This document shows positions 3,744 to 29,717 of a stretch of DNA of 35,106 nucleotides, in pieces. The notes below the pieces were generated by a model that did no database searches, was not told the origin of the DNA, and was given only the letters and a program-made list of their open reading frames with translations. A program made the translations under genes and the position numbers. Position 1 is the stretch's first letter, and each line of letters starts with the position of its first letter. The stretch spans positions 1 to 35,106 of the IMG/VR virus record IMGVR_UViG_3300045971_000258. One strand, written 5' to 3'. Origin of the DNA: a virus.

Positions 3744-4175
3744 TTACTTTTTCTGTGCTGTTTTAGGGCTGTTTTGAGCAGTTTCTGGTGCACTTTCAGC
3801 CACTTCAGTTGCCTTTTTGCTCACTTTCGCAGCTCTTTTCGTAGCATTGAAGTAAACATCTAGTTCACCCGCTAATGCTGCCTTCTTAGCACTCTCAAAC
3901 AGTTTGATTGCGTCAGCAGCATTTGCTAGTTGGTAGCTTGGGTTTGCTTTGTTCAGTTGCGAAGGGCCATTCTTCAAAGTTACAACGAACACGTCCCCAA
4001 TCTTCTTAAAGCAGTAGCCCTTGTCCTTGCCATCCAAAAGCAACTTAACTTGCTCGTCTGCTACTTTGGCAAACTTCATCTGCGCTGCCTTAACTGGATC
4101 AGTCTTAGCTGTTTGCTTGAAGTAGGGAGTTGCGATCTTGTTGATTGATGTGAAAAAGTCAATTGCTGTAGCCAT
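3744..4175 (-). CDS. Small lysine/alanine-rich phage protein, probable paralogue of the 29292-29717 product (143 aa)
   Basis: No named family. A compact N-terminal part (GDVFVVTLKNGPSQL around 60-74) is followed by a helix with SAKKAALAGELD near 95-106 and a basic, low-complexity tail ending SPKTAQKK. The same plan, including SAIKAVLDGDFD and a K/A-rich tail, occurs in the 141-aa protein at 29292-29717, so the two look like diverged paralogues. The basic tail would suit nucleic-acid binding (inference). It is a single-gene unit: ribosome binding site AAGGAC, own terminator, and a roughly 130-base leader containing a -10-like TATAAA (minus, near 4281-4286) and imperfect inverted repeats around 4232-4281. 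Confidence 0.7.
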   Translation of the reverse strand: MATAIDFFTSINKIATPYFKQTAKTDPVKAAQMKFAKVADEQVKLLLDGKDKGYCFKKIGDVFVVTLKNGPSQLNKANPSYQLANAADAIKLFESAKKAALAGELDVYFNATKRAAKVSKKATEVAESAPETAQNSPKTAQKK

Positions 4176-4785: not shown

Positions 4786-5883
4786 ATGGCAACCCAAACA
4801 CTACCTGACGGTCTTGTGCTGCGAGGCACAACGTATCACTTACGCTTTATGTTCAAAAGTGTACTCATTACGGAGAGTACAAAGACAAAGAATTTGCGTG
4901 AAGCAGAACGCTATTTGATAAAGAAGAAAGCAGAACTACAAGAAGATATGATGCTTGGCGGAATGAAGATTGGCAAGCTACACGCTGCAATGGACAAGTA
5001 CCTCAAAAGCTATATGACGGAAGAAGCAGCTAAACAGCCTTCCTATGCAATTACCAAGTTTAAGGGCATAGAAGATATGCCACTTAAGAAGGTTGAATCT
5101 GCGCATATAGAAGCAATCATTAAGAGTATGCAAGACACGCACTCAGAAGCAACCATACAAACACATATCAGCTATTGGAATGCCTTTTGCAACTGGTGCA
5201 CAAAGAACAAGTACCACACGCCCCCAAAGATGAGTCGCAAGGGTAATGTAGAAGGTCGTACAAGATGGCTAACAGCAGAAGAACAAGCCAAGTTGCTTGC
5301 TGCACTTGATCCAGCAAAGAACAAACCAAAGCGTAGAGACACTGGCAATCTATATGCACAAGAGAGACACGACTTCGTTGTTATTTTGATGGACACAGGA
5401 CTAAGATTTACAGAAGTTTCAAAGATGACTTGGACACAAGTTGATATAGATAAGAAGGTGTTGTATGTACAGCGCAAGAAGAAAGGTGCACCCGCTACAC
5501 TTGCAATGACAACTCGTGTAAATGAATTATTGGTTAGAAGGCGTGGTATTGATGAGCAGTACATTTTGCCTAAGATGGCTGGTGCTGCGATGAACGGTAC
5601 AAGGTGGATGAAGGATGCACTTGCAAGAGCAGGTATAAGTGAAGCTGATGGTAAGATAAGTCCCCATACGCTACGGCATTCATTCGCTGCCGCAATGATT
5701 CAGAATGGACTTGCGTTAAATGAAGTTCAACACTTGCTTGGACACGCCAACATTCAGCAAACTACACGTTACGCTAAGTTCCGCAAACAAGATGCAACGG
5801 ACAAGGCAGCAGCAATAATGAACAGTCTCGCAACTAAGGTTGAACCCAAGTCAGACAATGTTATCCAAATCAACGCTGCTTAA
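4786..5883 (+). CDS. int: Tyrosine-type site-specific integrase (365 aa)
   Basis: Catalyses phage integration, and excision with helper factors, by tyrosine recombination. The C-terminal catalytic domain (about 160-345) shows all active-site residues: R in TGLRFTEV (about 205), K in the beta-hairpin RKKKGAP (about 230), HTLRH (about 291-295), LLGHAN (about 315-320) and the nucleophile in TTRYAKF (about 328). The N-terminal 60 residues match the arm-binding region of lambda-like integrases, followed by a SAM-like core-binding domain (60-150). Full length for the family and intact. It is transcribed against the structural genes; its stop codon overlaps the stop of the convergent holin-like gene by 4 bases. 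The ribosome binding site is weak (TTTTAGGAACCCAAA before ATG). Confidence 0.95.
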   Translation: MATQTLPDGLVLRGTTYHLRFMFKSVLITESTKTKNLREAERYLIKKKAELQEDMMLGGMKIGKLHAAMDKYLKSYMTEEAAKQPSYAITKFKGIEDMPLKKVESAHIEAIIKSMQDTHSEATIQTHISYWNAFCNWCTKNKYHTPPKMSRKGNVEGRTRWLTAEEQAKLLAALDPAKNKPKRRDTGNLYAQERHDFVVILMDTGLRFTEVSKMTWTQVDIDKKVLYVQRKKKGAPATLAMTTRVNELLVRRRGIDEQYILPKMAGAAMNGTRWMKDALARAGISEADGKISPHTLRHSFAAAMIQNGLALNEVQHLLGHANIQQTTRYAKFRKQDATDKAAAIMNSLATKVEPKSDNVIQINAA

Positions 5884-10901: not shown

Positions 10902-10907
10902 TATTTA
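10902..10907 (-). promoter_or_regulatory. TAAATA-type promoter element before the tail fibre gene
   Basis: The minus strand reads AACGCTAAATAAGAATAAG, 22 bases upstream of the ATG at 10879 and in the 74-base gap after the 870-aa virion protein. A short inverted repeat ACCC/GGGT lies just upstream (10915-10932). Confidence 0.5.
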
Positions 10908-17457: not shown

Positions 17458-17934
17458 TTATTTATTGCATTCATATTGTTCTTGCCTCTGTTTGGGCACA
17501 TACTTACCTGCCAAGTACTGTCTCTTCGTTATTCCATATATGTAACAATCTTTATCTACACCTTGATAGTCTTTCAAACAACCTTCATTGGTGTGACCAA
17601 GGCGAGTTAGCATTTCTATTGATTTGCTATTGTCTGTAAGGACCGTTGCAATGACCTTCTCCCTATTCATTTGAAAGAATGGATAGTCATATGCCGCTTG
17701 TATGTAGCCCTTCGTTGCCCATTGACTTGGTTCAGCAGCAATAGACATTTCAACGCTGTACTTCATCCAACTGTGATATGCGATAACTGCCAGTATCTTG
17801 TACGAGTTATCTTCTACATAAACGTGTGATATAAGTCTTGAGTTATCACACGAGAAGTTGTTTTGCAGTTTATGATTTATGAAATCAAAAAATACTGGCG
17901 CTTGGTCGAATACGATGACATTAGCCAACTTCAC
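17458..17934 (-). CDS. GNAT-family acetyltransferase in the tail gene block (158 aa)
   Basis: Fold pattern of the GNAT superfamily: beta strands with AVIAYHSWMKYSVEMSIAAE (about 50-69), a helix after WATKGYIQAAYDYPFF, where the region around Q72-G75 occupies the usual acetyl-CoA loop, then VIATVLTDNSKSIEMLTRLG (about 94-113), the classical N-x-x-S-x-x-x-L-x-x-x-G segment of RimJ/RimL-like enzymes. It probably transfers an acetyl group to a protein or small molecule. The frame starts with GTG at 17934 touching AGGAG; the in-frame TTG at 17928, 5 bases after AGGAGG, is an alternative. Either way the start overlaps the end of the tail nozzle gene by up to 14 bases. Confidence 0.75.
   Translation of the reverse strand: MKLANVIVFDQAPVFFDFINHKLQNNFSCDNSRLISHVYVEDNSYKILAVIAYHSWMKYSVEMSIAAEPSQWATKGYIQAAYDYPFFQMNREKVIATVLTDNSKSIEMLTRLGHTNEGCLKDYQGVDKDCYIYGITKRQYLAGKYVPKQRQEQYECNK
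17459..17464 (-). promoter_or_regulatory. TAAATA-type promoter element before the 697-aa virion protein
   Basis: The minus strand reads GCAATAAATAACAATAACG, 25 bases upstream of the ATG at 17433 and overlapping the last codons of the GNAT gene. Variant of the shared element (AATAAATAAC). Confidence 0.4.
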
Positions 17935-19582
17935 CTCCTGGTGAAATAATCCAACTTGTCGAACTCCATATAGTGTCAGCAGTTACAGATAAGGACATTG
18001 CAAATGCAAGATACTCGCCTGGATAACAGTTAGGTGTTGACCATTGGTTATATGTAGTCAATGAGCCTTGCCAAGTTGTTGCACCTGCATCCCAATTCAT
18101 ATTGTCCCAAACACCACCAACGACTGAATACACAGCATTAGTTCCAACAATGGGTGTTAAGTTAAAGTCTGTGTTCACACCAATAGCAATCATTGGATTA
18201 GCCATACCTGTAGTTAGGAATGGTTTGACTAGGCGAACAGTTTTCAATGTGCCAGGACGCATTTGATCTGTCATTGGGTCAAATGCAGTTAAGACAGTAC
18301 AAGAAATGTTATTGCCGCCATTACCGTTAATGTCTGCACCATCTGTATAACCAATAAAGGTTAAGGCGACGTGATCAGTTGAACCAAAAAACATTTGGTC
18401 ATTGAATATATTGAAGCAGGCTGCTGGCCAGCCAGTAAACTGACTCCATCCTTTTGTTATTGTGTGGAAGCAAAACTGGAAGTTAGCTGAAGTAGTTAAC
18501 TGAGGTATATTCAACATCATCACGTTTTCAGACGGAAATACACATAACTCAAATCCTGGCTGTGAAGCGAGACTTGAAGTTAAGGCTGAAATCGTTGGAG
18601 ATATTGTGTAAGTTAATGCCGCAGTAGAATCTAAACGTGCGGATTGCAAATACTTAGATAATGGATATAACCCATCTTGAGTCAAAATCATTAAGTCGCC
18701 TTGATATTGCGTAGTGCAACGGCGACCAACTGGAGAACCTACTTGGTACTGCCCAATAAGCGTCCAGCTTGTGGATGAGCTTGGATCGTTACCCGCAAAT
18801 ACAACGACGTCACCCTTACTGGAGATAGCGACTAAGAGGGCTTGTGTACCCTGTGTAGAGCCAATGTCCATCGTCCACGTGTCCAGCTTGTAGAGCGATC
18901 CACCGCGTGTAAACAATGGACCAAAGTCGAACGCTGCTAACTGCCCGCCAACGGCGGCTACTGGTGCGTAGTACGCCTTAGTGCTGTTGTTGGCTACGAA
19001 CCAAAGGCGTTGTTGGTGCTGGAGAATGTCAATGAAGTTTGAGATTGCAACGGCATTACCGTTGTTATCTAACTGATTGAATTGCCCTATGCCTGCTGGA
19101 CTCGCAGGCTGTGAGCAAGTTGTCCACGTCGTACCATCGTATAAACGAGGATAATCAACGCCATTAACCATCATCACGTAGTTAGAACCTGATGTTGAAT
19201 ATGTCTGCTTCGCTTGCTGCCAATATGTGCTCGTCGTACTTAAACCGCTGACAATAGCAGTACCAATAGCGCCGCCTGTCGTAATGTCATATATATTCCC
19301 ACCAGATACAGCAAATAGCTTGCTACCAGTTGAAGTCTTGGAGTTATATGTAATTAGGGAATTTACAGTTGATGTAAATCCAGTTGCCCATTTTCTATAG
19401 CCCTGACGTGGTGAACATCCTTGCGGGTTTGCAATGAAGTTTTGCAAACTCAGTGCATATGCCCTATCCATTGCAGCAAGTGAGTCAACAGTGTTCAGTC
19501 CCTTATAAGGTGCTGGACTCTGCTCTTTAACAGTAGTTGGAGGAACAGGTTTGTAAACGAACTGACTTTGTGCTCGTGCCAT
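17921..19582 (-). CDS. Tail nozzle-type stabilisation protein (553 aa)
   Basis: The N-terminal segment YKGLNTVDSLAAMDRAYALS followed by LQNFIANPQGCSPRQGYRKW (about 25-65) is the signature of podophage tail nozzle/needle-platform proteins (P22 gp10 / T7 gp12 type), whose body is a beta-propeller-like tube. The rest is beta-rich with W, Y and G at turns (TWTMDIGSTQGTQALLVAIS; GWSQFTGWPAACFNIFNDQM). It directly follows the adaptor gene with a 2-base gap, as expected for adaptor-nozzle pairs. Length agrees with this class. Ribosome binding site weak, so translational coupling to the adaptor gene is likely. Confidence 0.7.
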   Translation of the reverse strand: MARAQSQFVYKPVPPTTVKEQSPAPYKGLNTVDSLAAMDRAYALSLQNFIANPQGCSPRQGYRKWATGFTSTVNSLITYNSKTSTGSKLFAVSGGNIYDITTGGAIGTAIVSGLSTTSTYWQQAKQTYSTSGSNYVMMVNGVDYPRLYDGTTWTTCSQPASPAGIGQFNQLDNNGNAVAISNFIDILQHQQRLWFVANNSTKAYYAPVAAVGGQLAAFDFGPLFTRGGSLYKLDTWTMDIGSTQGTQALLVAISSKGDVVVFAGNDPSSSTSWTLIGQYQVGSPVGRRCTTQYQGDLMILTQDGLYPLSKYLQSARLDSTAALTYTISPTISALTSSLASQPGFELCVFPSENVMMLNIPQLTTSANFQFCFHTITKGWSQFTGWPAACFNIFNDQMFFGSTDHVALTFIGYTDGADINGNGGNNISCTVLTAFDPMTDQMRPGTLKTVRLVKPFLTTGMANPMIAIGVNTDFNLTPIVGTNAVYSVVGGVWDNMNWDAGATTWQGSLTTYNQWSTPNCYPGEYLAFAMSLSVTADTIWSSTSWIISPGGEVG

Positions 19583-19584
19583 AC

Positions 19585-20310
19585 TTAGGACCAGTTTCCA
19601 TCAGGTATATTGCGTGTTGATAGCAATGGTGTTGATAGCGATCCACCTGTTAGTGATAAACGAGGACTTGGTTGATCATTACCCTTTGTTAGCTCGTATG
19701 AACGTTTGTAATCAATCAATGCTGCTGTCGTATCTTGTCCAATACTTGCCAACCAACGATACTTAACACCGTAGACAACTGTTCGATAGTCAAACATACA
19801 AATATCGCTATCTTGCGTAAAGTCATCTTTAGTTAAGCCTGTGCTGCCATCAATGACATAGTTGCAACTTGAATACTCAAATGCGATAGTTAGTGCACTT
19901 GAACCCGGTGTTGGATATAACTCGATTTGATTGTTCCAAATGCGGTAACGCTCAAATGGACTTGAAGATAGATTGGTAGTCTTAAGTAACTCCCAACCAG
20001 CAGCGGTTAGTGGACCCTTCAACTCCCAACGATTTGTTGTGTCAAAGAATGTTCCTGATGTAAGTCTTGCTACATCACTTGGGAATGGGTATGCTGATTG
20101 CGCCGCTACAGTTGTGAATGTGTAGCGTGTTTGAAGCATTTGCCACTCATACTCTGCGAGTAAAACGTCACAAGTTGCTCTTGCAAATGCGAGTGCCTTC
20201 AATACGTTTTGATCACTTACCGACACAACGACTGATGGCATCGGAAGATTTAGTTCTGCGAATGTAGATCGCAGAATCTGTAGAATTGTTTTCTGATTGT
20301 TTAGTGCCAT
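19585..20310 (-). CDS. Tail adaptor (gatekeeper) protein, T7 gp11 / P22 gp4-like (241 aa)
   Basis: The start is the ATG at 20310 (MALNNQKTILQILRSTFAEL), preceded by GTGGAGG; the frame also opens with TTG at 20328 but that lies inside a hairpin without a ribosome binding site. The helical N-terminus with ALAFARATCDVLLAEYEWQM, then YPFPSDVARLTSGTFFD, a WELKGP... beta region and IELYPTPGSSALTIAFEYSS is the pattern of podophage tail tubular A/adaptor proteins that join portal and nozzle. It is followed at once by the nozzle gene. Its ribosome binding site is in the 3' arm of a perfect 12-bp inverted repeat whose loop contains the promoter element, suggesting promoter-dependent translation. Confidence 0.75.
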   Translation of the reverse strand: MALNNQKTILQILRSTFAELNLPMPSVVVSVSDQNVLKALAFARATCDVLLAEYEWQMLQTRYTFTTVAAQSAYPFPSDVARLTSGTFFDTTNRWELKGPLTAAGWELLKTTNLSSSPFERYRIWNNQIELYPTPGSSALTIAFEYSSCNYVIDGSTGLTKDDFTQDSDICMFDYRTVVYGVKYRWLASIGQDTTAALIDYKRSYELTKGNDQPSPRLSLTGGSLSTPLLSTRNIPDGNWS

Positions 20311-20315
20311 TCGGC

Positions 20316-20351
20316 CTCCACTGCTCAACTTATTTAGCGTGAGCAGTGGAG
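20316..20351 (-). promoter_or_regulatory. Hairpin containing a TAAATA promoter in its loop and the ribosome binding site in its arm
   Basis: Perfect inverted repeat: CTCCACTGCTCA (20316-20327) and TGAGCAGTGGAG (20340-20351), 12-base loop. On the minus strand the loop reads CGCTAAATAAGT, with the TAAATA element at 20336-20331, 21 bases before the ATG at 20310. The downstream arm ends in GTGGAG, part of the ribosome binding site GGAGG of the adaptor gene. RNA reading through from upstream would hide the site; RNA starting 6-10 bases after TAAATA would lack the first arm and leave it free. Confidence 0.7.
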
Positions 20352-20360
20352 AACGGGTAC

Positions 20361-21095
20361 TTAGACCTTAGTCTTTGATGCCTTAACTTCTGGTTCAGGT
20401 TTGTTATTTGCTGAAACCATCTCCATTAGTTGAAGCATCTTGGCGTTTAGTTCTGCCATTTCAGCTTTGTGTTTGCTTTCTTGGTCAGCGAGTTGCATAG
20501 TCATTAAGGATGTCTTCTCCGTATCCTTTGCAATCTCAAGGAAGTGTTTTGCCTTTTCCTTCATATTGTAGAAACTGCGTAAAATTCCTGATGTTGAATC
20601 AGATAAGTTAGCGACTTGTTCAATAGTCTTGATGCCGTGATACTCAAGCTCTTTAACTTGGCTTGCTGTAAGTTCCATCCAGCTTGATAGTGGTGTGCCT
20701 TGTACGACGTGACCCTTACCAGCTTTGAATGCCTCATACTCACGTGGGAAACGCCACTCATAAAAATCCGTTACAGGCCCGTGATAAGTTAAATCCTTGT
20801 TGCCTGGAATGATGATTGTTATGAAGTCCATATCTTGGTACTTAGGAGAACCTGCTTTGTATGACTCAAGTTTGTTAAGTACCGCTACAGTCGTGAAATT
20901 GACAACTAACTGGTCATCACCTCCATAGTCTGAGTGACGTAAGAAACGTCCTGTGCGCGGGTCGCGTTGTCCCCTGCGTTCTTCTTCTGCGAAGCGATCT
21001 TCAAAGTTAAGATTTTGAAGTGCGTTATTTAAGTCTAAGTCAGCGGCGATTGTTGCCGCAAGTTGAGCTTTAAGCTCTGATGCTGTGTTTGTCAT
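20361..21095 (-). CDS. Conserved podophage protein of unknown function with C-terminal coiled coil (244 aa)
   Basis: The start is the ATG at 21095 (MTNTASELKAQLAATIAADL) with AAGGAAAA before it; the frame is open to 21212, but that part covers the promoter/terminator region. Residues about 45-55 (RDPRTGRFLRH) are basic; 80-110 is a short beta region. Residues about 140-185 (GTPLSSWMELTASQVKELEY, then IKTIEQVANLSD) resemble a helix-hairpin-helix-like segment common in this position in podophage head/tail blocks. Residues 190-230 are a coiled coil (QESKHKAEMAELNAKMLQLM). It forms a unit of its own after the capsid terminator. Possibly virion-associated; function unknown. Confidence 0.6.
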   Translation of the reverse strand: MTNTASELKAQLAATIAADLDLNNALQNLNFEDRFAEEERRGQRDPRTGRFLRHSDYGGDDQLVVNFTTVAVLNKLESYKAGSPKYQDMDFITIIIPGNKDLTYHGPVTDFYEWRFPREYEAFKAGKGHVVQGTPLSSWMELTASQVKELEYHGIKTIEQVANLSDSTSGILRSFYNMKEKAKHFLEIAKDTEKTSLMTMQLADQESKHKAEMAELNAKMLQLMEMVSANNKPEPEVKASKTKV

Positions 21096-21171: not shown

Positions 21172-21177
21172 TATTTA
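21172..21177 (-). promoter_or_regulatory. TAAATA-type promoter element after the capsid terminator
   Basis: The minus strand reads TTAGCTAAATACTTTGCAAG, one of the best matches to the shared consensus GCWTAAATACTTTG. It lies 76 bases upstream of the ATG at 21095 and 20 bases after the end of the capsid-unit terminator, so it must restart transcription for the downstream block. Confidence 0.6.
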
Positions 21178-21197: not shown

Positions 21198-21228
21198 AAA
21201 AAGCCCCAACAAATGAATGTTGAGGCTT
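21198..21228 (-). terminator. Rho-independent terminator of the capsid unit
   Basis: On the minus strand AAGCC-T-CAACA (21228-21218), six-base loop, TGTTG-G-GGCTT (21211-21201) form a stem with one internal mismatch, followed by TTTTT (21202-21198). It follows the decoration-type gene ending at 21258. Confidence 0.75.
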
Positions 21229-21758: not shown

Positions 21759-22730
21759 TTAAGTGTTGCTGTACTTGCCTAAGAACTGTGTACCAGAACT
21801 TGTCAAGTTACCTGCCCACGCCAAAGTTTTAACAGTAGCGTCTTGGTTAACAGCTTGTTTGTCATCTAACGCAACCATATTGCGGGATGCGTGTGGACGC
21901 CATTTCAAATACTTGCTGTTTACAAAGTATGCGTCTGTCGTTGCAATACCACCAGCAGTTGTATCAAATACAACTGGAATGCCTTGGTAAGACAATGTAC
22001 GGAAACCAGCGGAAGCATCTTCTGCGCTGTAGATGTGTTGCATAGCTTGTAATGCTGCTTCAAATACAGCGAATACAGCAGGACCGCAAATGATTACGTC
22101 TGGACGATCAGAACCACGTGTTACGGAAGTAATGAATGTATTCCATTGCGAAAGGATAGTTGCGGATGTTGCTACACCAGCGCCATCAACAGATGCTTGG
22201 TATTTCTTGTTCTTCCAAAAGCTGTTTGCAGTTGCGGAACGGTCAATACCACCGTATGTGTTTGTTGGAGCTAAAGGCATCGCAGCAGCTAAACCAGTGA
22301 TGTTCTTACCGTTGTTACCTGTACCATCTAAGTAGATGTGACGGTTAAGTAAGTTGTTCATTGTATTTTCTGCAACTGTTACGCGAGCTTCGATCAAGTC
22401 GATAATCTGTGCTTTACCTGCATTGATCAATTGTTCACGACCAGAGAATGTAACTGGTACTGCATATTGAGCAACTTGGAATTGAGCGCCAGAAATAACG
22501 TCTTGTGCTGCTACTGGCAAGTAGTCGTAACCAGAGTAAGAACCACCGTTACCGTTTTCAGCGAAGCTAAATGCTTCATTGATAACAGTACCGCCGTTAA
22601 ACTCGACGATGTTGCCTGATTTGTTGATCCAGTTAAGGACCGCGTTGTGTGCTGTTACGTTGTCAGCGATAACCTTTTGGCGAGCTTCGATTGTGGAAGC
22701 TGCTAAGTCTGATAGATTTGGAAAACTCAT
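21759..22730 (-). CDS. Major capsid protein, HK97 fold (323 aa)
   Basis: Sequence pattern of the BPP-1-like/HK97-fold major capsid proteins: an N-terminal helix with TIEARQKVIADNVTAHNAVL (about 12-31), the VEFNGGTVINEAFSFAENGN extended loop region (about 42-61), YDYLPVAAQDVISGAQFQVA, the spine helix with QIIDLIEARVTVAENTMNNLLNRH, the PDVIICGPAVFAVFEAALQ A-domain segment and a terminal GIPVVFDTTAGGI...YFVNSKYLKWRPH strand region. Length is typical. The gene follows the scaffold protein and the 78-aa gene, with a TAAATA element 45 bases before its ATG and an AAGGAATAAA ribosome binding site. Codon-rich in GCT/GTT-type codons like a strongly expressed gene. Confidence 0.88.
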   Translation of the reverse strand: MSFPNLSDLAASTIEARQKVIADNVTAHNAVLNWINKSGNIVEFNGGTVINEAFSFAENGNGGSYSGYDYLPVAAQDVISGAQFQVAQYAVPVTFSGREQLINAGKAQIIDLIEARVTVAENTMNNLLNRHIYLDGTGNNGKNITGLAAAMPLAPTNTYGGIDRSATANSFWKNKKYQASVDGAGVATSATILSQWNTFITSVTRGSDRPDVIICGPAVFAVFEAALQAMQHIYSAEDASAGFRTLSYQGIPVVFDTTAGGIATTDAYFVNSKYLKWRPHASRNMVALDDKQAVNQDATVKTLAWAGNLTSSGTQFLGKYSNT

Positions 22731-22775: not shown

Positions 22776-22781
22776 TATTTA
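22776..22781 (-). promoter_or_regulatory. TAAATA-type promoter element before the major capsid gene
   Basis: The minus strand reads CCCTTAAATATAAAGCAAG, 45 bases upstream of the capsid ATG at 22730 and overlapping the stop region of the 78-aa gene. Confidence 0.5.
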
Positions 22782-23042: not shown

Positions 23043-23087
23043 TATTTAGCAAGAGAGATAGAAATCCAACTCTCTTGCTGATATTTA
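23043..23087 (-). promoter_or_regulatory. Perfect 10-bp hairpin flanked by two TAAATATC elements
   Basis: AGCAAGAGAG (23048-23057) and CTCTCTTGCT (23070-23079) form a perfect stem with a 12-base loop after the scaffold gene. On the minus strand TAAATATC occurs on both sides: at 23087-23080 before the stem and at 23048-23041 right after it (GCTAAATATCTTTG). The stem may act as a processing or pausing signal rather than a classical terminator, because no T run follows. The downstream copy lies about 25 bases before the TTG start at 23015 and is the better promoter candidate. Confidence 0.55.
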
Positions 23088-26858: not shown

Positions 26859-28280
26859 TTAAATTCTTTTAGGGCCACTTAGCGCAATAGAACGGGCTTT
26901 TGCCTCGCGTTCCTTAAAGGCGTTGTCAATAGTCCAAGCTGATACAGCAGCAGTCGCTCCAATATTTATGCGATAAGGGTCTGTCGCCGCTGTTGTGATG
27001 CGTTGTGCTGCTCGTTCAATACTTCTGCCTAAGTCCTCTGGCTTGATTGATAAGCAGGCATAGCGAAAAGCATCTGCGCCGTGTGACCATTGATCGTGCG
27101 ATGGCGTGTCACTAAATATCTTCTTGTCCATATCCCACTTACGGGAATAGTTCTTCAATGCCTCTATTCCGCGTTTGCAGCGTACAGAGTCAAAAACTAA
27201 GGGGTAAGTACGCAGAGTCTTGCGAACGCTGTCTATCTGATCGTGTAAGTCCAACTTAGGGACTACACGGCAGGGAGCGTCATAGGCACGGAATGTGTCC
27301 AGTACGGATTTCTTCGTAGCGAATGTCCTATGTACTGCGTCGTGCGGAATAAACCACGTGTCATAGTTGTAGGGCTTGAGTTGCAGCATTTCGCAGACTT
27401 CCTCTGCGTCATAGCCTGTTTCTTCAAAATAGTCGAAGAAAACAACATCACCCTTAATGACTTGCCAAAACCATATTGCACAAGCATCCCTATGACCCAA
27501 GTCCATTGCTATATAGACTTTCTCCTTTGCGTCATAATCAACAGGAGTTCTTACCTTCCCCTGCTGCTCAATAGCTTGCATATGCTTGCCAAAGTAAGTA
27601 CCTATGTTTGCAGCCTCAAAAGAGCATTCATATTCCTGTTCAAATAAATCATCACCTAAATCTATTTGTGCCTCATCAAGTACATACTGAGGCAATAACT
27701 TTGTTTGACTTGCTTTAAGACAGAGGTAAAACCAATCATCTTTGTCATTCTCAGATGCTTGTTTATGTTTATCGTAGAAATCGTTCTTGCCCTTAGGAGT
27801 GCCCATATAGACAATCCATCCTTCTCTATCTGACAAAGCAGGCAAAATAACTTGAGCAACTAATGTTGCCTTCATATCTCCAAACTCGTCTAAGATAACT
27901 CCGTCAAAGTACATACCGCGCATACTGTCGGGGTTATCCGCGCCATATAAGCGAATACGTGCTTCATTGGGTAGCTTCACATATAATTCTGATTCACTTA
28001 TCTTGCAGCCAGGTATTTCGCGTACTGCTTCCTTCAGATATTCCCAAGCGACTAACTTTGCTTGTTTTAACTCAGGACATATGTATGCGTAGTTAGGACG
28101 TTTGAATGTTGGGTGTTTGAAGCGCAGTGCTTTACTTACAAGATCATTTACCGCTGCAACTGTTTTTCCGCAACGACGATGAGCGACTAAGACTGCCTTC
28201 CTATGTCTACGTGAGTGGAAGGACTTAAACCAACTACGAGGCTCATATTTGAGTTTGATCGTATTGACTGGCGTTGCCAT
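26859..28280 (-). CDS. terL: Terminase large subunit (473 aa)
   Basis: ATP-driven DNA packaging motor with nuclease. Walker A AHRRCGKT (residues 33-40), Walker B GVILDEFGDM (127-136, catalytic E132), coupling motif MGTPKGKNDF (159-168), then the RNase H-like nuclease: YIAMDLGHRDA with Asp260 and Asp265, a HDAVH segment and a final DQWSHGADAFRYA with the third acidic residue. Complete length for the family. The start touches the stop of the preceding gene (TAAATG), so the two are coupled. The N-terminal KYEPRSWFKSFHSRRHRKAV is the usual arginine-rich adenine-binding region. Intact motifs suggest a functional phage. Confidence 0.95.
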   Translation of the reverse strand: MATPVNTIKLKYEPRSWFKSFHSRRHRKAVLVAHRRCGKTVAAVNDLVSKALRFKHPTFKRPNYAYICPELKQAKLVAWEYLKEAVREIPGCKISESELYVKLPNEARIRLYGADNPDSMRGMYFDGVILDEFGDMKATLVAQVILPALSDREGWIVYMGTPKGKNDFYDKHKQASENDKDDWFYLCLKASQTKLLPQYVLDEAQIDLGDDLFEQEYECSFEAANIGTYFGKHMQAIEQQGKVRTPVDYDAKEKVYIAMDLGHRDACAIWFWQVIKGDVVFFDYFEETGYDAEEVCEMLQLKPYNYDTWFIPHDAVHRTFATKKSVLDTFRAYDAPCRVVPKLDLHDQIDSVRKTLRTYPLVFDSVRCKRGIEALKNYSRKWDMDKKIFSDTPSHDQWSHGADAFRYACLSIKPEDLGRSIERAAQRITTAATDPYRINIGATAAVSAWTIDNAFKEREAKARSIALSGPKRI

Positions 28281-28754: not shown

Positions 28755-28775
28755 TAAATACTTACGAGGTATTTA
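28755..28775. promoter_or_regulatory. Divergent TAAATA promoter pair (inverted TAAATAC repeat)
   Basis: TAAATAC (28755-28761, plus) and its inverted copy GTATTTA (28769-28775) are 7 bases apart in the 80-base gap between the two divergent genes. The plus copy lies 29 bases before the ATG at 28790; the minus copy lies 60 bases before the ATG at 28709. This is the only intergenic plus-strand TAAATA I found, and it precedes a plus-strand gene, which supports orientation-specific promoter function. Confidence 0.6.
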
Positions 28776-29291: not shown

Positions 29292-29717
29292 ATGGACTTT
29301 TTCAGAGGACTACGCAAAAACAAATCAGTTGTATTTCTTAAGGAGCCAGTGCTTGCTGGTGCAACTAAGAAGAACAAAACCATTGCTGACGAGCGCAAGT
29401 TTGTCGCTGGCAAGTTACAAGACGGACTTGCTGTATTCCAAGGAACTTTCAAAGGCGAGAAAAAACCCGCCACAACGCTAAAGGATATGAAGGATGGAAC
29501 CTACATCTTCTGCGTTAAACACGGCGTACAAATCCTCCCAATCCTTGACGGAGAGAAGTATGTTCGTGTGCCAAAAGAGTTAGTTGTGGACTGCTACAAC
29601 AGCGCAATCAAAGCAGTGCTTGATGGTGATTTTGACAGCACTATCAGCGAAGCAGTTGAGGCAAACAAGATCGCTCGTGCAGCCGCAGTAGCAAAGACAA
29701 AAGCGAACAAGAAGTAA
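29292..29717 (+). CDS. Small lysine/alanine-rich phage protein, probable paralogue of the 3744-4175 product (141 aa)
   Basis: Begins MDFFRGLRKNKSVVFLKEPV, with a compact beta-like centre (DGTYIFCVKHGVQILPIL, about 73-90), then YNSAIKAVLDGDFDSTISEA (about 108-127) and a K/A-rich basic tail. The segment SAIKAVLDGDFD parallels SAKKAALAGELD in the protein at 3744-4175, and both end in basic low-complexity tails and stand alone with their own terminators. A DNA-binding or virion-DNA role is inferred only from charge. It has a strong host-type promoter (29232-29261), a GGGAGTGAGCA ribosome binding site and a terminator at 29736-29760, so it may be highly expressed and independent of the late system. 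Confidence 0.7.
   Translation: MDFFRGLRKNKSVVFLKEPVLAGATKKNKTIADERKFVAGKLQDGLAVFQGTFKGEKKPATTLKDMKDGTYIFCVKHGVQILPILDGEKYVRVPKELVVDCYNSAIKAVLDGDFDSTISEAVEANKIARAAAVAKTKANKK

Follow-up and report, generated by a model that had tools for sequence, protein, structure and literature searches.

A late-promoter element within a hairpin probably gates translation of the adaptor gene in an uncultured temperate short-tailed phage

The adaptor (head-tail connector) gene of an uncultured, temperate, short-tailed phage is preceded by a hairpin that carries a TAAATA late-promoter element in its loop and the ribosome binding site of the gene in its 3′ arm. We consider it likely that this arrangement is a promoter-coupled translation gate. 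RNA arriving from upstream has both arms and would fold, leaving the adaptor untranslated, while RNA begun at the TAAATA in the loop would start in or after the 3′ arm, would be devoid of the 5′ arm and would allow translation of the adaptor. The hairpin, its placement, the promoter motif, the same layout with unrelated arms in relatives and the energetics were computed here; the exact start site, taken over from T4, and repression by the hairpin in vivo are inferred.

Results

The window, i.e. the whole stretch of DNA analysed, is a 35.1-kb virus record with an integrase gene at 4786–5883 on the plus strand. Its late block lies on the minus strand in the order terminase, portal, scaffold-position gene, major capsid protein (21759–22730), two more genes, adaptor, nozzle-position protein and internal virion/tail genes. 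The adaptor gene (19585–20310, minus strand, 241 aa) is assigned to SU10_adaptor (PF24175) and PHROG 6013. The late gene upstream of it (20361–21095, minus strand; 244 aa from an SD-preceded ATG) has its stop codon 9 nt before the hairpin. Downstream, a 553-aa gene at the tail nozzle position (17921–19582, minus strand) starts 2 nt past the adaptor stop and is likely translationally coupled to the adaptor. Pfam reported no domain in this 553-aa gene, and its PHROG 5107 label of amidase looks doubtful, its place behind the adaptor fitting a tail nozzle protein. A 158-aa gene (17458–17934, minus strand) overlaps the 553-aa gene, is presumably coupled as well and forms the end of the block that the hairpin would gate. 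A host search of bacterial genomes found no close relative as a prophage. The nearest cultured relatives by capsid are Myxococcus phage Mx8 and Stenotrophomonas phage BUCT555 (47–50% identity), and their head-gene order around the adaptor resembles that of the window.

A perfect 12-bp inverted repeat with TAAATA in a 12-nt loop and GGAG in the 3′ arm had been described by the sequence-only reading, and its coordinates are exact. The plus strand across the hairpin reads CTCCACTGCTCA (20316–20327), ACTTATTTAGCG (20328–20339) and TGAGCAGTGGAG (20340–20351). Since late genes occupy the minus strand here, the RNA has its 5′ arm at 20351–20340, and the minus-strand order is CUCCACUGCUCA-CGCUAAAUAAGU-UGAGCAGUGGAG, followed at once by GCCGAAUG. 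The 5′ arm CUCCACUGCUCA (20340–20351) and the 12-nt loop CGCUAAAUAAGU (20328–20339; CGCTAAATAAGT in the RNA) thus precede the 3′ arm UGAGCAGUGGAG (20316–20327), which ends in GGAG. The TAAATA in the loop, a late-promoter element of the -10-only type which we call site E, occupies 20336–20331 (minus strand). The Shine-Dalgarno GGAGG of the adaptor gene (20315–20319, minus strand) has four of its five bases within the 3′ arm and stands rather close, 4 nt away, to the ATG at 20310. Transcription is predicted to start at 20325 (minus strand), 6 nt past TAAATA as in T4 late promoters (numbering PMC2988020).

The hairpin is the longest perfect short inverted repeat of the whole window. When the whole window was shuffled with dinucleotides preserved, 5 of 60 shuffles also contained a 12-bp repeat with a loop of 3–30 nt, so that its length alone is only moderately unlikely (about 0.1 expected). 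As RNA, the hairpin region folds to −28.1 kcal/mol compared with −10.7 kcal/mol in shuffles (z = −6.6, 0/200), well outside the chance range, and in a comparison with shuffled flanks the start region is occluded at p = 0.001. Assignment to a known RNA family was rejected, as Rfam covariance models gave no match to the hairpin at E values up to 1. A sequence-specific DNA operator was rejected as well, as the arms of the four phages compared below are without common sequence.

Folding calculations bore out the claim that upstream RNA folds and buries the ribosome site and that promoter-started RNA cannot do so. The promoter-started RNA was modelled as beginning 6 nt after TAAATA, and the measure was the computed energy for opening the start region. 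For the window adaptor this energy is 26.5 kcal/mol in the read-through RNA and 7.2 kcal/mol in the promoter-started RNA. The corresponding values are 16.1 and 1.5 kcal/mol for the adaptor of L002, 20.6 and 2.3 kcal/mol for that of G001 (the contig of L006/L014) and 18.3 and 3.0 kcal/mol for that of G014 (the contig of L091), where G numbers are genome handles. Each of the four gated adaptors is unlikely against shuffled flanks (p = 0.001–0.018). The same kind of calculation for T4 gene e gave 15.7 versus 3.4 kcal/mol, a computed gate strength similar to that of the window adaptor, so that the parallel drawn with this documented case (PMC3014915) is reproduced numerically. By position, TAAATA follows the main 5′ arm in all four phages and the promoter's own RNA would therefore be without this arm, which makes the conclusion independent of the exact start site.

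The sequence-only reading had named base-pair conservation in homologues as its test. The layout was found again with wholly different arms in three relatives, and it is not universal. L002, G001 and G014 have a hairpin at the same adaptor position with TAAATA in the loop and arms of unrelated sequence (GUGUUUCC...GGGAAACAC in L002, CUGCGUCCUCUCG...CGAGGGGAUGCAG in G001 and GUCUCUCCCUAUCG...CGAUAGGGAUGAGAC in G014). When the 5′ parts were swapped among the four gated phages, occlusion was weaker in 12 of 12 mixes (self 16–27 kcal/mol, swapped 4–16 kcal/mol). Each 5′ part thus pairs best with its own partner despite the unrelated arms. Nine adaptor loci have TAAATA just upstream and four of them an enclosing gate; the gate is absent from G005, G011, G012 and G013, and G015 has a weak variant of it before the adaptor. 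G002, G003, G006, G008 and G009 are without TAAATA at the hairpin position. Apart from the pair of the window and L002, gated phages fall at separate places in the adaptor tree, which has several unresolved forks, so that either gain or loss of the gate may explain the pattern.

A census across the clade compared 69 non-redundant genes with TAAATA 13–45 nt before the start with 231 control starts without TAAATA from the same genomes. An energy difference of at least 12 kcal/mol in favour of the promoter-started RNA was reached by 10 of the 69 TAAATA-led genes and by none of the controls (Fisher p = 2.4e-7). A rank test over all sites was only weakly shifted (p = 0.02), the excess sitting in the strong tail. 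Strong gates are a minority of TAAATA promoters and not a trait of each; the idea that every TAAATA is gated was rejected, as most sites are open. The list of ten gated genes includes the adaptor, two GIY-YIG endonucleases (PF01541), a gene at the small-terminase position and a 754-aa late protein. The two gated GIY-YIG genes are located at 4053 in G002 and at 5575 in G008 (coordinates of G records are given in late-gene orientation).

Judged by its distribution, TAAATA is a real late-strand signal with the behaviour of a late-promoter element. In six relatives it takes the top rank among 4096 late-strand hexamers, with 52 occurrences against 2.5 expected (p = 7e-49), and its reverse complement occurs 12 times in the same relatives. 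GC-rich relatives have TAAATA nearly confined to the late strand; one stretch of 62% GC contains seven copies (0.3 expected) and none on the other strand. The AT-rich window has 25 sites on both strands together (24.7 expected), 20 of which are on the late strand, a modest enrichment over the 9–14 expected there. The window alone is therefore a weak promoter case, because TAAATA is common in it by chance. Across genomes the sites recur at syntenic gene borders, also after intrinsic terminators. On the minus strand of the window, they include site B ahead of the portal gene, within the terminase 3′ end (26963–26968; same place in seven genomes), a site before the major capsid gene (22776–22781), site D behind the capsid genes (21172–21177; syntenic in relatives), site F past the gated block (17459–17464) and a site before a 558-aa tail-fibre-like gene (10902–10907). 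An intrinsic terminator (AGCCTCAACA..TGTTGGGGCTTTTT; 21198–21227, minus strand) stands just before site D. The enrichment is absent from Mx8 and BUCT555 and also from contigs whose portal identity falls below about 36%. Mx8 and BUCT555 have no TAAATA in the stretches read, and the Mx8 adaptor starts 3 nt past the upstream gene, which leaves no room for a gate.

T4-type late promoters, as known from T4, KVP40, S-PM2 and Aeh1, consist of a single -10 element ending in TAAATA without a -35 element (PMC2988020). Alignment of 53 sites of the clade revealed only (A/C)TAAATA as conserved, with no -35 or other element beyond the A/C before TAAATA. The TAAATA core and the lack of a -35 element agree with the T4 type named earlier, but the promoter is not the full TATAAATA (-13 to -6 in T4), the TA of which at -13/-12 is not conserved in the clade. 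The nearest known form is the Aeh1 variant a/gC-TAAATA (PMC2988020). Searches by phmmer and through the genomes gave no match to T4 gp55, and no Sigma70_r2 domain scored over the cut-off, in a set in which many contigs are fragments and for factors that are short and divergent. NCBIfam and PHROG searches of small ORFs, and likewise a search among clade-shared genes outside the virion block, yielded no candidate for a TAAATA recogniser. The suggestion that the device was borrowed from T4 found no support, since these searches, which are weak tests, returned no homologue of the T4 late sigma factor. We suppose that the RNA polymerase binding TAAATA is phage-specific or phage-modified.

Discussion

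Promoter-in-hairpin gates are textbook knowledge for T4, and our literature search turned up no description of them outside T4 and its relatives. The T4 gene e (lysozyme) leader, like those of soc and 49, has its late promoter within the sequence that specifies the 5′ strand of a hairpin; the gene e hairpin buries the ribosome site, late RNAs are without the 5′ strand, and experiments have established the gate (PMC3014915). T4, a lytic myovirus, possesses gp55/gp33/gp45 and the full TATAAATA, and its RNAs upstream of gene e are early, hence a timing device. In contrast, the window phage is temperate and short-tailed, uses (A/C)TAAATA before a structural gene, has a promoter of that late class also upstream and gave no match to gp55. 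A late promoter together with a hairpin sequestering the ribosome site also precedes homing endonuclease genes, namely I-TevI/II/III and segB of T4 and mobE of Aeh1, and for I-TevI this combination delays translation (PMC2988022). The gated GIY-YIG genes of G002 and G008 mirror I-TevI, whereas the gated gene of the window is a virion adaptor and not an endonuclease, and promoter type and phage group differ from the T4/Aeh1 leaders.

The main rival to a promoter-coupled gate is translational coupling, in which ribosomes that have completed the upstream gene would open the stem and start again on the adaptor; the hairpin would then make adaptor output follow translation of the upstream gene, the TAAATA of the loop being incidental. 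In the window, L002, G001 and G014, approximately 3–11 nt separate the stop codon of the upstream gene from the 5′ arm, close enough for a terminating ribosome to make contact with the stem base, and at the 9 nt found in the window terminating ribosomes could disturb it. However, given the size of the ribosome footprint, a terminating ribosome in the window would barely reach the stem base. Moreover, strong gates occur at TAAATA-led starts and at none of the control starts of the same genomes; thus, we regard coupling as unlikely. Alternatively, the hairpin might be a terminator, a processing site or a 3′-end-stabilising element between capsid and tail genes, as Tφ of T7 is, with the occluded ribosome site as a side effect. 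Other hairpins do occur between the same genes in G002, G008, G003 and G006, which are without TAAATA here, but these leave the ribosome site open (opening energy 2–7 kcal/mol). An intrinsic terminator in particular was rejected, since the stem lacks a trailing U-run and was not picked up by the terminator scan, while the clear terminators of the clade are elsewhere, as at site D, and have U-runs. This second explanation appears improbable to us.

A promoter acting at the DNA level would be a third possibility, with cruciform extrusion exposing the TAAATA in a single-stranded loop to the polymerase, similar to the virion RNA polymerase of N4. In support, the window, L002, G001 and G014 each have an inverted repeat with TAAATA as part of its loop. 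Most TAAATA sites, some of them at the same syntenic positions, are nevertheless without an enclosing repeat, and the loops here are 12 nt or more, whereas the stems of N4 promoters are short and their loops tiny, which makes such a promoter very improbable. A chance inverted repeat beside an AT-rich hexamer is barely credible. Repeats of this length do arise somewhere in shuffled windows, as described above, but the repeat lies exactly over promoter element and ribosome site, it has three independent counterparts at the locus, and the census shows an excess; chance was rejected on the adaptor-locus comparison and the census.

We therefore retain the promoter-coupled gate as the likely reading. 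As the next two genes are tightly packed behind the adaptor, the first after a 2-nt gap and the second by overlap, the gate would probably set the adaptor-nozzle block as one unit, up to the next promoter at 17464. This block would depend on its own promoter and not on read-through from capsid-side transcripts. The proposal of a timing device, in contrast, was not supported. The nearest upstream promoter, D (21177–21172), is also a TAAATA element of the same late class and is preceded by a terminator, so that the upstream RNA need not be early and may be equally late. Instead of timing, the gate may tie adaptor output to its own promoter. The adaptor of short-tailed phages is needed in about a dozen copies. 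A stoichiometric role, with the adaptor decoupled from abundant capsid-side RNA, would fit at least as well as timing, and suggests that the gate could keep the output of a low-copy virion part independent of high-copy capsid messages.

On a broader scale, we tentatively speculate that a short-tailed phage group, to which the window phage with its integrase belongs, expresses its late genes from a -10-only TAAATA through an as yet unrecognised factor and has repeatedly evolved gates that restrict translation of the adaptor block, a packaging gene and homing endonucleases to RNA from their own promoters, for stoichiometry and not for early/late timing. This wider picture is possible, and we would not call it probable. 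The same logic in a second, apparently unrelated phage group suggests convergent design. The analysis also reveals a strong late-promoter motif in an uncultured phage group and makes available independent, naturally occurring hairpins on which the logic of such gates can be tested.

Several further arrangements around TAAATA were observed. In L002, a NUMOD3/GIY-YIG-like endonuclease gene (L002:360–1112) is inserted at a TATAAATAAA promoter, which is uninterrupted in the close relative L007 (L007:5842–5857). The insert ends with its own ATAAATAAA, by which the capsid-side promoter is rebuilt behind it. A perfect 10-bp hairpin in the window (23048–23079), between TAAATA elements at 23087 and 23048 and ahead of a small pre-capsid gene, occludes no start site. 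Several genomes have a facing TAAATA..TATTTA pair where the packaging operon begins, namely the window (28755–28775), L007 (L007:170–190) and, upstream of the small-terminase-position gene, L097, L100 and L103. Where it overlaps the ribosome site, as in some of these genomes, the TATTTA arm of the facing pair gives rise to a promoter-in-hairpin gate of a second type. The window also encodes two non-virion proteins of about 140 aa (3744–4175 and 29292–29717) that to the eye resemble paralogues of each other, and the first of them is conserved at 33–42% outside the virion block in five genomes of the clade.
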